The notes under the pieces were generated by a model. It had not been told where the DNA came from and did no database searches. It worked only from the letters and a program-made list of their open reading frames with translations. Position numbers and translations under genes: made by a program. This document shows, one piece after another, positions 3,065 to 9,903 of a stretch of 64,000 nucleotides of DNA (its first letter is position 1; each line of letters opens with the position of its first letter). The DNA is taken from assembly GCF_900129785.1 (NCBI RefSeq), contig NZ_FSRC01000001.1, positions 930,001 through 994,000 on the forward strand. The letters are read 5' to 3'. Source of the stretch: Algoriphagus halophilus. Its GTDB lineage: Bacteria > Bacteroidota > Bacteroidia > Cytophagales > Cyclobacteriaceae.

Positions 3065-4987
3065 ATGTTATCGATTAGTAATCTCTCTTATTTCATAGGC
3101 GGACGTCCTTTATACGAAAATGCCAACCTTCATATCAAGCCAAAAGATAAAATTGGACTGGTAGGACAGAATGGTACAGGTAAATCTACTCTCTTGAAAA
3201 TTATTTCCGGAGACTATCAACCTACATCAGGAGAAGTCCAAAAAGCCAAAGATTGTTCCATTGGGTTTTTAAATCAGGATCTGCTTTCTTATCAATCGGA
3301 TGAAAGTATTTTAAATGTGGCCTTGGCAGCATTTAAAGAGACCTTGGATCTTCAAGATGAAATTGATCAAGTTCTCAAAGAAATGGAAACCGATTATTCG
3401 GAAGAAATCATGAATCGGTTGGCAACCTTGCAGGACCGCTTTGAGGCAAACGAAGGGTATACCATCAAAGCAAAGGCAGAGGAGGTATTGGAGGGAATTG
3501 GTTTTAAGACCTCGGATCTTCAAAAGCCACTTCGAACATTTTCCGGAGGTTGGAGAATGCGGGTCATGCTAGCCAAACTTCTATTGGAAAAGCCATCTCT
3601 ATTGATGCTAGATGAGCCAACAAACCACTTGGATTTACCATCCATTCAATGGGTAGAGAACTACCTGAAGACTTATGAAGGTGCAGTGGTAGTGGTTTCT
3701 CACGACCAAACCTTTTTGGACAACTGTATCACCAGTACGGTTGAAGTAGCCAATCATACGTTGACGCTTTACTCTGGGAATTACTCTTTCTATAAAGAGG
3801 AGAAGAAAGAGCGGATGGAGATTCAACAGAATGCGTATGAAAATCAGCAGCAAATGATCAAACAAACGGAAAAGTTCATTGAACGATTCCGTGCAAAAGC
3901 CACCAAATCCAATCAGGTCCAATCTAGGATCAAGGCGCTGGATCGGATGGAACGTGTGCATGAAGTAGTCAATGACGAAGTGTCTGTAAACTTTAAGTTT
4001 AAATTTTCAAAGCAATCGGGAAGGGACGTCGTAACCTTGGATAACATCTCAAAAGCCTATGGAGATAATGTTATTTTGAAAAATACTTCAGCGCGAATTG
4101 AGAGAGGGGATAAGATTGCTCTGATTGGAGCGAATGGGAAAGGAAAGTCAACCTTACTAAGAATCATAGATGGCTCAGAAAAGGGAATTACCGGAAGGAC
4201 TGAAGGCTATAATGTCATCAAGTCATTTTTTGCTCAGCATCAACTAGAAGCCCTGACTTTAGACAATGAGATCATTCAGGAAATGTCCCAGGCAGGTAGC
4301 GCAAAAACTGAAATGGAACTTCGAGGGGTTTTAGGCTGCTTTTTGTTTTCCAATGAGGAGGTGTTTAAGAAAATCAAAGTCCTTTCCGGAGGGGAGAAGT
4401 CCAGGGTGGCTTTGGCCAAAACACTGATTTCAGAAGCGAACTTTTTGCTGTTGGATGAACCTACCAATCACCTGGACTTTCAGTCTGTCAATATCTTAAT
4501 CCAAGCACTGCAGCAATACGAGGGTACTTTTGTCACTGTTTCTCACGATCGGCATTTTATTAAAGGGGTGGCGAATAAGATTTGGTATATTGAAAATTAT
4601 GAGATTAAAGAGTACCCTGGAACCTATGAGGAATATGAGTTTTGGAAATCTCAGCAAGTAGAGGAGAAAGAAGCTGATACTCCCAAACCAGCCAAGAAAG
4701 AGAAACCTGCTCCCACACAAAGCCAAAATGAAATAAATCAGGCCAAAAAAGAGTTGAAGAAGTTGGAGGAAAATCTATCTAGGGTTGAAAAGGAAATAGA
4801 AAAGCTGGAGTCTCAGAAAACGGATGTGGAGCTGAAAATGGCTGATCCTGCATTGTATGCCAATGAAGATGAGTTGAAAAAAGTGCAGGATCTTCATCAG
4901 TCTATTCATCGAAAAATGGATGATTTGAATTCAGAATGGGAGGTATTGGTAGATGAAATATCGGCTCTTCAAGAAGTCCTGGCTTAA
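3065..4987 (+). CDS. ABC-F family ATPase (ribosome-associated, Uup/EttA-like)
   Basis: A 640-residue protein with two ABC cassettes and no membrane segments, the hallmark of ABC-F translation factors that act at the ribosomal E-site. First cassette: Walker A GQNGTGKST at 34-42, signature FSGGWRMR, Walker B LLMLDEPTNHLD. Second: GANGKGKST near 354-362, LSGGEKSRVALAKTL, LLLDEPTNHLD. Between them is the charged P-site tRNA interaction linker (AKATKSNQVQSRIKALDRME). The C-terminus is a Lys/Glu-rich coiled coil of about 80 residues, as in Uup/YheS-type members. Such proteins resolve stalled ribosomes or give antibiotic protection; a specific resistance role is not implied by the sequence. Confidence 0.92.
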   Translation: MLSISNLSYFIGGRPLYENANLHIKPKDKIGLVGQNGTGKSTLLKIISGDYQPTSGEVQKAKDCSIGFLNQDLLSYQSDESILNVALAAFKETLDLQDEIDQVLKEMETDYSEEIMNRLATLQDRFEANEGYTIKAKAEEVLEGIGFKTSDLQKPLRTFSGGWRMRVMLAKLLLEKPSLLMLDEPTNHLDLPSIQWVENYLKTYEGAVVVVSHDQTFLDNCITSTVEVANHTLTLYSGNYSFYKEEKKERMEIQQNAYENQQQMIKQTEKFIERFRAKATKSNQVQSRIKALDRMERVHEVVNDEVSVNFKFKFSKQSGRDVVTLDNISKAYGDNVILKNTSARIERGDKIALIGANGKGKSTLLRIIDGSEKGITGRTEGYNVIKSFFAQHQLEALTLDNEIIQEMSQAGSAKTEMELRGVLGCFLFSNEEVFKKIKVLSGGEKSRVALAKTLISEANFLLLDEPTNHLDFQSVNILIQALQQYEGTFVTVSHDRHFIKGVANKIWYIENYEIKEYPGTYEEYEFWKSQQVEEKEADTPKPAKKEKPAPTQSQNEINQAKKELKKLEENLSRVEKEIEKLESQKTDVELKMADPALYANEDELKKVQDLHQSIHRKMDDLNSEWEVLVDEISALQEVLA

Positions 4988-5019: not shown

Positions 5020-6291
5020 ATGAAGTATGTCCCTGTTTTATTTTTAGCGATTTTATTGGTTTTTAGTACCTATGTGGATGCCCAAGTGGAGGATAAGGTA
5101 TATAAAGACCATATTCAATCTGTAAGAATATTTCCTTTGGGGCCGACTACTGGGAGCCAATTGGATGCACCTGTTGTTTCAATTTTGGGAGGAAAACAAC
5201 TTGTTCTGTTATTTGATGATTTGGCTTATGATCCTGAATTGTATTCAGCAACTTTGATTCATTGTGATGCAGATTGGAAACAGTCAGATTTAAAAAACAA
5301 TGACTTTCTGGTTCCTTTTAATGAATTTAATATTCAAGATTATGATTATTCGATAAACACCCGAATACCCTATATCCATTACAAGTTTCTCATTCCCCAA
5401 GTGACCAAATCGGGGAATTATGTGGTCAAAGTTTATCGCAGAAGAGATCCGGATGATGTGATCCTAACCAAGCGATTCATGGTTTATGAGGATTTGTTGA
5501 CAGTAGGGGCGGGGATAGTACCTCCATCTCAAACAGCCAATATCCGGGGGCAGCAGCAAATCAACACAGTGGTAAATTATTCAAAGGTGGAGGTTATGAA
5601 CCCCGAATCACAGGTTAAAGTGATTATTAGGCAAAATCAGCGCTGGGACAATGCCAAATACCTGACTAAGCCTACTTTTATCAACCAGAGCTCAAAAACG
5701 CTCCGATACGAGGATTTTGATGGCGGGAATGCATTTGATGCCAGTAATGAGTTTCGATTTGTGGATCTCAGGTTTATGAGAGCCACTGGACAGAATGTTG
5801 GTGCCATGAGAGTAGAGGAGGATGCAGTTTTTGGCGAATCCTTGGCAAATAAACCAAGGCGGAATGAGGCTTACTCCCAATATTTGGACTTGAATGGCCA
5901 GTATATTGTGGATACAAATGATCGGCCAGGGGGAGACCCAGAACTGGAAAGTCAATATGTTTACATGACTTTTAATGTAGATGTTCCCAAAGGAACTGAG
6001 CCCATCTATTTGTTAGGATCTTTGACCAATTGGGGGAAAGCTCCAGAAGCTAAATTTGAGTGGGATGAGAAGTTTCAGATCTATAGAACCTCCTTATTGC
6101 TCAAACAAGGTTGGTACGATTATCAGTTAGGTTACCTGAAGAATGGCGTATTTGTAACGGAATCATTCGAGGGGTCTCATTTTGAAACTGAAAACGTATA
6201 TGAGGTCTTTGTGTACCTCAGAGCATTAGGATCAAGATATGATCAATTGGTAGGCTATTCAGTATTGCAGCCTAATCGAAGGAGGTTATAA
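5020..6291 (+). CDS. DUF5103 / type IX secretion system plug protein family
   Basis: A 423-residue exported protein with a signal peptide (residues 1-21, cleavage after VDA). The N-terminal half (DHIQSVRIFPLG, LLFDDL, LIHCDADWKQSDL, RIPYIHYKFLIPQ, SGNYVVKVYR) matches the DUF5103 domain, whose members include the plug of the SprA translocon of the type IX secretion system. The C-terminal part (DVPKGTEPIYLLGSLTNWG, WYDYQLGYL) looks like an immunoglobulin/CBM-like beta-sandwich. It sits alone after the ABC-F gene with about 30 bases between. No other type IX genes are in the window, so the secretion role is taken from the family. Confidence 0.85.
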   Translation: MKYVPVLFLAILLVFSTYVDAQVEDKVYKDHIQSVRIFPLGPTTGSQLDAPVVSILGGKQLVLLFDDLAYDPELYSATLIHCDADWKQSDLKNNDFLVPFNEFNIQDYDYSINTRIPYIHYKFLIPQVTKSGNYVVKVYRRRDPDDVILTKRFMVYEDLLTVGAGIVPPSQTANIRGQQQINTVVNYSKVEVMNPESQVKVIIRQNQRWDNAKYLTKPTFINQSSKTLRYEDFDGGNAFDASNEFRFVDLRFMRATGQNVGAMRVEEDAVFGESLANKPRRNEAYSQYLDLNGQYIVDTNDRPGGDPELESQYVYMTFNVDVPKGTEPIYLLGSLTNWGKAPEAKFEWDEKFQIYRTSLLLKQGWYDYQLGYLKNGVFVTESFEGSHFETENVYEVFVYLRALGSRYDQLVGYSVLQPNRRRL

Positions 6292-6316
6292 AAAAAGCTC
6301 CCAGGTTTTGGGAGCT
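6290..6316 (-). terminator. Intrinsic terminator of the cas6-like gene
   Basis: Stem AGCTCCCA/TGGGAGCT with a five-base loop. The + strand has an A-run on its left, so on the minus strand the hairpin is followed by a T-run. It lies between two convergent genes; the + side lacks a clear T-run. Confidence 0.7.
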
Positions 6317-6324
6317 ATAGTATA

Positions 6325-7215
6325 TTAATCTTCAGATTCAGTTTCCGAATCATTCTCTTCTGCTGGAGGTGCTACATTTTGCCTTACTCGCTCATTTGGC
6401 TTATAAGGGACGAAGCCTTCTCTTTTAAATTTGTAAGTTTTTGTTCTTGCTCCAGGAGGATGAGTCGCCAAATCCAACATGCCAAAACCTTTATGGGTAA
6501 AGGCACCAAGACCACATTTGAAGACGAAATCCTGTACCTCAGGAGCTGCATATAAAGTAAATGGTAGGGTGTAACCACGTACTTCATATTTTACATCCAT
6601 GTCGTACACTGCATAGATTCTTGCAAATTTCTTCTGCTGTTCTTTCAGTTTATTCACATAAACCATATCAGGAACCACTTGAAATTTGAAGAAAGACTCC
6701 ATTTGTTCCGGAGTATACCAACCAGAACGCTCCATACGAGTCAATGTAGATTCGTACAATAGGTCAGAGAACTCATCACTGTCTGGACTGATAAATCGTT
6801 TACCAGCTTCTTCATTGAATGCTGGGATGATCAGTACCAAAGGTGAAATACAAACAAACTTATTCGAAGTCTCCAATTCTGGTTCAACTTCAATTTCAGT
6901 ATACTCAGGGACTAAGATTAAGTTTCCAAGCTCTACTTTTGGAGTAGCAAAAACTTGCTCTAATAGATAGTCCATGAAATCCTCACTTTGCGAAGATAGT
7001 ACAAGAGTGACAAGACTGGAATAATAGTGAAGACCGCTTCTGCTTACTTTGGTCTGTCCTTTTAGTCCAGAAAAGTTAAAGAAGTTGTAATTGTAAAATT
7101 CTTCTCGTCCACCTTTTACGATCAGTCCCTTTAGGAATTGGGCAAGGATATACTGATGATGGAAAGGCAAATAGGAGCCTTTGTTTTTTAGGGAAAATAT
7201 AAGTCTAACTCTCAC
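6325..7215 (-). CDS. cas6: Solitary Cas6-family CRISPR endoribonuclease (RAMP)
   Basis: A 296-residue protein with the plan of Cas6, the metal-independent endonuclease that cuts pre-crRNA repeats. Seen in order: a first RAMP beta strand (MRVRLIFSL), the LP-x-HH-x-Y stretch with His19/His20, the FNFSGLKG strand, ISPLVLIIP near 123-131, RGYTLPFTLYAAPEVQDF, and the glycine-rich loop GLGAFTHKGFGMLDL at 235-249, the most diagnostic Cas6 signature. His19/20 or His63 could serve as catalytic residues. The last 30 residues are an acidic tail (PPAEENDSETESED). There is no CRISPR array and no other cas gene anywhere in the window; neighbours are housekeeping. It has its own candidate promoter and terminator, so it is probably expressed alone. 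A role in trans for a distant array, or a non-CRISPR RNA-processing role, are both possible. Confidence 0.82.
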   Translation of the reverse strand: MRVRLIFSLKNKGSYLPFHHQYILAQFLKGLIVKGGREEFYNYNFFNFSGLKGQTKVSRSGLHYYSSLVTLVLSSQSEDFMDYLLEQVFATPKVELGNLILVPEYTEIEVEPELETSNKFVCISPLVLIIPAFNEEAGKRFISPDSDEFSDLLYESTLTRMERSGWYTPEQMESFFKFQVVPDMVYVNKLKEQQKKFARIYAVYDMDVKYEVRGYTLPFTLYAAPEVQDFVFKCGLGAFTHKGFGMLDLATHPPGARTKTYKFKREGFVPYKPNERVRQNVAPPAEENDSETESED

Positions 7216-7282: not shown

Positions 7283-7290
7283 CAAAATTA
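7283..7290 (-). promoter_or_regulatory. -7 box TAATTTTG upstream of cas6-like gene
   Basis: On the minus strand this matches TAnnTTTG and lies about 68 bases before the cas6-like ATG, in the gap after ychF. It suggests that cas6 is transcribed separately from ychF. No good -33 element at the usual spacing was seen. Confidence 0.35.
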
Positions 7291-7310: not shown

Positions 7311-8408
7311 TTAAACATTGAATCTAAAATGCATGATATCGCCATCTTTGACCACATATTCTTTTCCTTCTATGGAAATTTTTCCATTTTCACGGCACCC
7401 TGCTTCTGTTTTGAATTGTTGATAATCAGCTAGTTTAATGACTTCAGCTTTAATAAAACCTCTTTCAAAATCCGTATGGATTACCCCTGCGGCTTGTGGG
7501 GCTTTCCAACCTTTGACAATTGTCCATGCCCTCACTTCTTGAACACCGGCAGTAAAGTAGGTGATTAGGTTCAATAACGAATAAGCGGCAGCTATTAGTT
7601 TATTGAGTCCACTTTCTTCTAAACCATATTCACCTAAAAACAGTTCTTTTTCTTCCAAATCTTCAAATTCTGCAATCTGAGATTCAATAGCTGCACAAAG
7701 AACGATTACTTCCGCATTTTCTTCTTTTACATTTTCTCTTAACTGATCCACGTATTTGTTACCAGTGAGAATGCTGTTTTCATCCACATTGGCTACATAC
7801 AATACAGGCTTGATAGTCAATAAATGTAGATCTTTAACTGCCTCTAAGTCTTCTTTCTCTACTTCTACTGAACGTGCATTTTTACCAGAGGTTAAGGCTT
7901 CTTTGAAAAGTGTCAGGGTTTCTAACTCTTTTTTAGCTTTGGCATCCCCTGATTTGGCAATTTTCTCAGTCTTTAAGATTTTCTTGTCGATGGATTCCAG
8001 GTCCTTCAACTGAAGCTCCGTGTCGATCACTTCTTTATCAAAAATCGGATCAACACTTCCTGCTACATGGACGATGTTTTCATCCTCAAAACATCTGATA
8101 ACGTGAATGACAGCATCTACTTCACGGATGTTTGCAAGAAATTTATTTCCTAGTCCTTCCCCTTTACTAGCCCCTTTAACAAGGCCAGCTATATCCACAA
8201 ACTCGATAACAGTAGGGAGTACTTTTTGAGGATTGACCAGTTGTTCTAATATTTTAAGTCTATTATCAGGGACTGTGACTACTCCTACATTAGGTTCGAT
8301 GGTACAAAAAGGGAAGTTAGCAGCTTCTGCTTTTGCACTGGAAAGAGCATTAAATAAAGTGGATTTTCCAACGTTTGGAAGTCCTACGATGCCACATTGT
8401 AAGGCCAT
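7311..8408 (-). CDS. ychF: YchF/OLA1-family ribosome-binding ATPase
   Basis: A 365-residue Obg-superfamily P-loop protein of usual family length. Walker A is GLPNVGKST at residues 9-17, followed by [14 protein letters not shown] (switch region) and [22 protein letters not shown] (G3). A coiled-coil insert (residues about 130-200) and the C-terminal TGS domain ([30 protein letters not shown]) are present. The family prefers ATP to GTP and binds ribosomes. It lies 7 bases downstream of an AI-2E-family transporter, probably in one transcript with it. Confidence 0.97.
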
Positions 8409-9579: not shown

Positions 9580-9903
9580 CTATTCCCATTTTAACTCGTT
9601 GGAAGATTCTTCTTCCTCTTTTTCATATTGATCAAAATCAACATCTGGCAGTAGTTCATTTTTAACATGGTCTACTGACTCATTCAATGCTTCAACGAAT
9701 TTGAAAAAATCTTCTTTATAAAGGAAAATTTTATGCTTTTCGTATGAAAAAGAGTCTCCGTTAACTCTTCTTTTACTTTCTGTAATCGTTAGATAATAAT
9801 CGTTAGCACGGGTCGATTTGATATCGAAAAAGTAGGTTCTCTTTCCTGCCTTCACTTTTTTCGAAAAGATTTCTTCCCTGTCGTAACCTCTTTGATCTTC
9901 CAC
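9580..9903 (-). CDS. DUF3276 family PUR-alpha-like nucleic-acid-binding protein
   Basis: A 107-residue protein beginning at a GTG codon. The central KKVKAGKRTYFFDIKSTR, DYYLTITESKRR and KIFLYKEDFFKFVEALNES match DUF3276 (PF11680), a Bacteroidota-wide relative of the eukaryotic PUR-alpha single-stranded DNA/RNA-binding fold. The C-terminus is acidic (DQYEKEEEESS). It is a single gene with its own terminator. The cellular target is not known. Confidence 0.9.
   Translation of the reverse strand: MEDQRGYDREEIFSKKVKAGKRTYFFDIKSTRANDYYLTITESKRRVNGDSFSYEKHKIFLYKEDFFKFVEALNESVDHVKNELLPDVDFDQYEKEEEESSNELKWE

Follow-up and report, generated by a model that had tools for sequence, protein, structure and literature searches.

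A lone Cas6 encoded behind ychF in Algoriphagus halophilus and its relatives, with a probable role outside CRISPR

Gene locus and leader

The window, by which we mean the whole 64,000-nucleotide stretch of the Algoriphagus halophilus genome that was analyzed, holds a gene for a Cas6-family protein (the orphan Cas6) between a ychF-like gene and a DUF5103-like gene (Table 1). A preliminary description of this DNA, made from the sequence alone, had named these two neighbours and had credited cas6 with its own -7 box and terminator, and all four are placed in Table 1. The box TAATTTTG, whose type we take to be -7-like, belongs to the gene's own presumed promoter, and a hairpin with a T run follows the gene.

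Table 1. Features of the cas6 locus, with positions counted from the first base of the window.
Feature	Position	Strand	Remarks
Orphan cas6 gene	6325..7215	-	GTG start, 296 aa, two RRM-like units
His20 codon	7156..7158	-	Invariant (311/311); opens helix alpha1 (20-35); aligned with Pfu His22, not catalytic His46
Shortened loop, residues 34-45	7081..7116	-	Site of the catalytic His in other Cas6; no His46-aligned His in 23/23 clade members
S-G-L-K-G-Q, residues 49-54	7054..7071	-	S49, K52, G53 and Q54 invariant, 315/315 each
K-K-F-A-R, residues 195-199	6619..6633	-	K196 and R199 invariant in 319/319
R-G-Y, residues 213-215	6571..6579	-	Invariant in 319/319
Glycine-rich loop GLGAFTHKGFG	6481..6513	-	Residues 235-245
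Tail, residues 251-296	6328..6465	-	Low confidence towards the end, fast evolving; not conserved as a feature
ychF-like gene	7311..8408	-	Upstream neighbour of cas6, same strand
DUF5103-like gene	5020..6291	+	Convergent, downstream of cas6; name from the preliminary description
-7-like box TAATTTTG	7283..7290	-	Presumed promoter of cas6
Intrinsic-terminator-like hairpin and T run	6290..6316	-	Behind cas6; direct reading of the sequence
Leader block ATTGTCTCAATTTATTTTTAA	7222..7242	-	Conserved in near relatives; one exact genome copy

The AT-rich leader block ATTGTCTCAATTTATTTTTAA lies just ahead of the start codon and was considered as a regulon signal, which was rejected, as beyond its one exact copy it has 6 more matches in the genome at 3 mismatches versus 14 for the reversed control. 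Mean column identity of the leader is 0.66 for cas6 (122 loci), 0.63 for ychF (124 loci) and 0.43 for the DUF5103-like gene (26 loci); the cas6 leader thus barely exceeds the ychF leader in conservation, which argues against a special role. No common hairpin was seen by eye in single-sequence folds of the cas6 leaders (12 printed of 55 kept), and Rfam returned no family at gathering score within the 64-kb window. The GTG start codon is common to 135 of the 145 loci compared below, the start chosen being the one nearest to the match, and it may represent deliberately weak translation.

Protein fold

Assignment of the protein to the Cas6 family is borne out by two curated profiles, PF01881 (75.6 bits, cut-off 23) and TIGR01877 (68.7 bits, cut-off 58.65), and by the presence of two RRM (RAMP) folds, on which the preliminary description had made the family call depend. 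PADLOC, run on the protein itself, returned Cas6 models only. Another Cas6 model, PF10040, has zero matches across the genome and thus misses the orphan Cas6 as well. The glycine-rich loop near the C terminus, also seen earlier, is near-invariant among the related orphan proteins (the clade, described below), with G235 in 318/318, G237 in 315/318, G243 in 317/317 and G245 in 317/318 sequences. The acidic C-terminal tail that had been pointed out does exist, but it is an unconserved, low-confidence, fast-evolving appendage.

The fold is matched by PfuCas6nc (PDB 3ufc) and PH0350 (PDB 3qjj), which share about 20-22% identity with the orphan Cas6 and presumably come from archaea with CRISPR systems. 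Compared with the PfuCas6nc-like class, the orphan Cas6 has the Cas6 fold and lacks the canonical triad. It differs in that the clade keeps H20-Q21 where the printed segments of PH0350 and 3ufc have N-Y or Y-N, and the invariant K-G-Q is the clade's own with respect to both proteins.

Loss of the catalytic triad and invariant residues

Pyrococcus furiosus Cas6 (PDB 3i4h, 3pkm), which we take to be part of a CRISPR system, was used together with the 5yi6 Cas6 as reference for aligning 23 clade members and 24 other Cas6 of the phylum. Its catalytic residues are Tyr31, His46 and Lys52, according to the passages considered from PMC3652601, and this triad is essentially absent from the clade, with Tyr31 in 0/23, His46 in 0/23 and Lys52 in 2/23 members. 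The other Cas6, only some of which are proven to partner a CRISPR system (5/24 loci show a repeat array in the fetched stretch), have Tyr31 in 21/24, His46 in 22/24 and Lys52 in 19/24. All 23 clade members show a gap at His46, and 13 of 189 clade sequences carry a His somewhere between residue 30 and residue 47. Between H20 and S49 lie 21-29 residues in the 311 clade sequences compared, versus 38-42 in 22 of the 24 other Cas6, with 20 and 30 in the remaining two.

The two other Cas6 without His46 are encoded at L157:6045-6860 (-) and L160:5983-6705 (-), and both look solitary. They represent a second, different Cas6-like gene, and of 18 genomes from a single GTDB family, 3 have it at no less than 31% identity (one copy in G616, two each in G712 and G827); no cas gene was found among the 8 neighbours tested, and one neighbour at L160 matches a candidate-defence model.

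Residues invariant wherever present in 319 distinct clade sequences are H20, Q21, F48, S49, K52, G53, Q54, Y186, K196, R199, R213, G214 and Y215 (orphan Cas6 numbering). The column of Pfu His22, to which H20 belongs, holds a His in 23/23 clade members versus 1/24 of the other Cas6. These data would fit either a rebuilt nuclease or an RNA binder without catalysis, and P. furiosus provides a known case of a non-catalytic Cas6 (PMC3652601, in part). A rebuilt nuclease would be a domesticated endoribonuclease in which His20 acts with K52, K196, R199 and Y215 to cleave a hairpin RNA of the cell. The invariance of H20 in 311/311 sequences and its place as first residue of alpha1 are consistent with this, as TtCas6e and PaCas6f also have their catalytic His in helix alpha1 and SsoCas6 cuts without any His (same passages). 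However, the His22 with which H20 aligns is non-catalytic in Pfu Cas6, and the five residues were grouped from sequence as opposed to model coordinates, and we consider a rebuilt cutting site a possible but tentative alternative. Because the counterpart of H20 in Pfu Cas6 is a non-catalytic His, we lean slightly towards a non-catalytic binder.

Distribution, synteny and selection

Comparison across genomes, which goes beyond what the sequence alone could show, makes cas6 a core gene of a large clade. It was found in 169 of the 196 genomes of the GTDB family (154/177 good-quality genomes, 75/84 genera), with best E values of 5.2e-72 or lower among the matches listed. At the order level 143/292 genomes matched, and dropping two weak matches (G614, 4.7e-5; G710, 9.0e-6) left 141 genomes from 13 GTDB families at E 3.3e-50 or lower. 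Across the phylum 52/392 genomes matched. The 9 strong matches all lie in the same GTDB family, and the other 43 are weak, with E values from 1.7e-17 upwards and identity no higher than 28%. Source names of carriers include Algoriphagus, Belliella, Cecembia, Echinicola, Cyclobacterium, Roseivirga, Fulvivirga and Aureibacter. Whole genera and families lack the gene, so the orphan Cas6 is not universally needed. Two contigs from metagenome assemblies titled Spirosoma fluviale (L080, L087) hold an Algoriphagus-like copy at 90-91% identity, and these titles may therefore be wrong.

A tree of 59 rows, made by quick search, places 35 orphan clade members on one side of a branch (SH-aLRT 100, length 2.1), apart from the 24 other Cas6, two of which sit on very long branches. 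The four Cas6 in the tree that come from CRISPR loci of the same GTDB family all fall outside the orphan clade.

The preliminary description had seen a solitary Cas6 in a housekeeping neighbourhood, and this observation is confirmed. Among 145 loci (125 from nearer relatives and 20 picked from distant genomes), ychF lies within 400 bases of cas6 in 136, on the same strand in 136/136, and the two genes are separated by a median of 98 nt (58-281); for the distant loci ychF is kept beside cas6 in 11/20. A wider block made up of a short protein like that at window 9580-9903, ychF, cas6, the DUF5103-like gene and an ABC protein like that at window 3065-4987 is seen in varying subsets in distant relatives (L128, L129, L132, L133, L141, L142, L143 and L145).

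Protein distances of cas6 and ychF correlate with a Mantel r of 0.93 over 57 thinned loci, with 0/999 permutations as high. By Nei-Gojobori counts on non-independent pairs, median dN/dS is 0.018 for cas6, 0.030 for ychF and 0.038 for the DUF5103-like gene (24 pairs, dS < 1.5), and mean pN is 0.071, 0.087 and 0.262, respectively (4560 pairs, 96 loci). Purifying selection on cas6 is thus no weaker than on ychF. At larger distance cas6 evolves faster than ychF, with about 41-57% versus 70-80% identity to the window at distant loci showing both genes or either.

A clear ychF is present in 19 of 20 non-carrier genomes examined, and at these 19 loci neither the clade profile (E up to 1) nor tblastn found a trace of cas6. 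The DUF5103-like gene borders ychF in 7 of the 19, one of them in another GTDB family, suggesting that cas6 either entered between the two ancestrally or was cleanly lost several times. The twentieth genome (G056) also lacks the ychF orthologue, so its missing cas6 may be an assembly gap.

CRISPR content of the genome and of relatives

The preliminary description had offered processing of crRNAs for a distant array as one role for the protein, and held that an intact type I or III cas operon elsewhere in the genome would make it an ordinary trans-acting Cas6. In the genome examined (4,976,387 bases in 8 contigs, with completeness rated at 100%) nothing matched Cas1, RAMP or Cas5, and no Cas3 passed the cut-off, the best cas3_core match reaching 46.6 bits versus 102.45; sub-threshold matches of this kind are found in all 196 family genomes. 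One CRISPR array pattern, paired ATTGAAAS ends, gave 2 single, unclustered matches versus 0 in the control and was rejected as an array; other repeats are possible.

In relatives of the same GTDB family we examined 11 CRISPR loci (L146-L156), which represent 8 of the 15 genomes with RAMPs and 3 of the 33 in which Cas3 passes the cut-off, and all 11 bring their own cas6, which also speaks against service to a distant array. Like the orphan Cas6 these proteins belong to the Cas6 family by profile, but unlike it they sit in cas loci, with a repeat array in the fetched stretch at 9/11. Four are visible to the clade profile (E 7.3e-12 to 6e-18), and the other seven, all in loci that are type III by their RAMPs, are more distant proteins of 221-257 aa. 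That type III loci rely on the orphan Cas6 was considered when the clade profile found nothing in these seven, a zero due to insufficient sensitivity, and was rejected since PADLOC or phmmer gave a dedicated Cas6 in 7/7. PADLOC, given 10 of the 19 ORFs of L146, identified the Cas6 there (9.2e-49), and phmmer was used for the remaining type III loci. L146 comes from a genome of the window's genus (G130), and its type III-D-like locus (L146:4739-19246, +) contains its own Cas6, Cas10d, Cas7 proteins, two CARF-PDDEXK proteins, Cas1, a PrimPol-like protein and Cas2.

These findings bear on a trans-acting Cas6, a standing crRNA processor for class 1 systems as these are gained and lost, which would include any array or system overlooked here. 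Passages of a review state that type III loci mostly borrow Cas6 in trans (PMC12669027), and cas6 can remain fixed during effector exchange (PMC6452270, in part). Above-cut-off Cas3 or RAMPs occur in 41/169 family carriers versus 0/27 non-carriers (Fisher p 0.0016) and Cas1 in 70/169 versus 5/27 (p 0.03), as a class 1 CRISPR link would predict. At the order level the sign is opposite, with type I Cas5 in 5/141 carriers versus 17/151 non-carriers (p 0.014), and the tests at both levels ignore shared descent. In addition, 98/169 family carriers are without Cas1, RAMP and above-cut-off Cas3, every CRISPR locus examined has its own cas6, the clade has lost the catalytic triad and dN/dS is 0.018, and we consider a trans-acting CRISPR role unlikely.

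Still more doubtful is a defence or anti-invader factor outside CRISPR that binds or sequesters phage RNA or CRISPR-like RNA of mobile elements. Typical defence genes are not vertical, syntenic and slowly evolving, as cas6 is, and PADLOC found nothing but Cas6 in the protein. Speaking for it are the Cas ancestry and the recognised tendency of CRISPR components to be exapted (PMC8730458, in part). A decaying relic of a lost CRISPR system, which would agree with the lack of the CRISPR genes tested in this genome, is ruled out by the dN/dS of 0.018 together with order-wide conservation.

Proposed role

Taken as a whole, the observations are probably best explained by an exapted, CRISPR-independent Cas6, and a cellular role independent of CRISPR is in itself quite likely. 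Given such a role, binding would on balance be the main activity, and cutting by a rebuilt site would have close to an even chance. The preliminary description had raised a domesticated RNase; domestication agrees with the order-wide vertical conservation, while the RNase part faces the loss of the canonical catalytic residues.

In the exapted Cas6 as we picture it, an ancestor of a large Cytophagales-type clade would have fixed a single cas6 behind ychF, and the clade would then have inherited it, mainly by vertical descent. Expression presumably starts at a promoter of the gene's own, on a transcript ending at the terminator behind the gene, and the protein would grip RNA via its two RRM-like units, the glycine-rich loop and the invariant basic residues. 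It was probably recruited to handle an RNA of the cell, and the bound transcript would likely offer either a short hairpin or a single-stranded element, of the sort handled by other Cas6. Binding, as a chaperone or regulator, may be its main job, rather than canonical crRNA cutting. That a large lineage has made this Cas6 into a core RNA-binding or RNA-processing factor, one that has a cellular RNA partner of its own and whose RNA site has been rebuilt, is a reading we favour modestly.

Exaptation of CRISPR parts is an established theme (PMC8730458, PMC6452270, both in part), and cas1-solo and other exapted parts are, like the orphan Cas6, Cas proteins outside adaptive immunity (PMC8730458, PMC9939771, in part). 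The portions of these accounts examined describe no lone, vertically inherited Cas6, and a paper on isolated cas loci (PMC5294841), which counts loci with at least 3 cas genes, does not contain the word cas6. Judged from titles, abstract starts and passages, the open-licence literature gave no report that we recognised of a lone Cas6 in this group. Exaptation of CRISPR parts and the non-catalytic P. furiosus Cas6 were thus already known, and no lone, vertical core-gene Cas6 of a bacterial lineage came up in the literature searched.

Many clade proteins are labelled 'CRISPR-associated endoribonuclease Cas6' in public sources, an annotation issue, as the label suggests CRISPR systems where none need exist. 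Cas6 is commonly regarded as a CRISPR-only processing enzyme, and the orphan Cas6 offers a tractable system for finding its RNA. If the exapted role is true, a RAMP protein has become part of the everyday RNA biology of these bacteria, and this would be a CRISPR-derived housekeeping RNA pathway undescribed in the papers searched.
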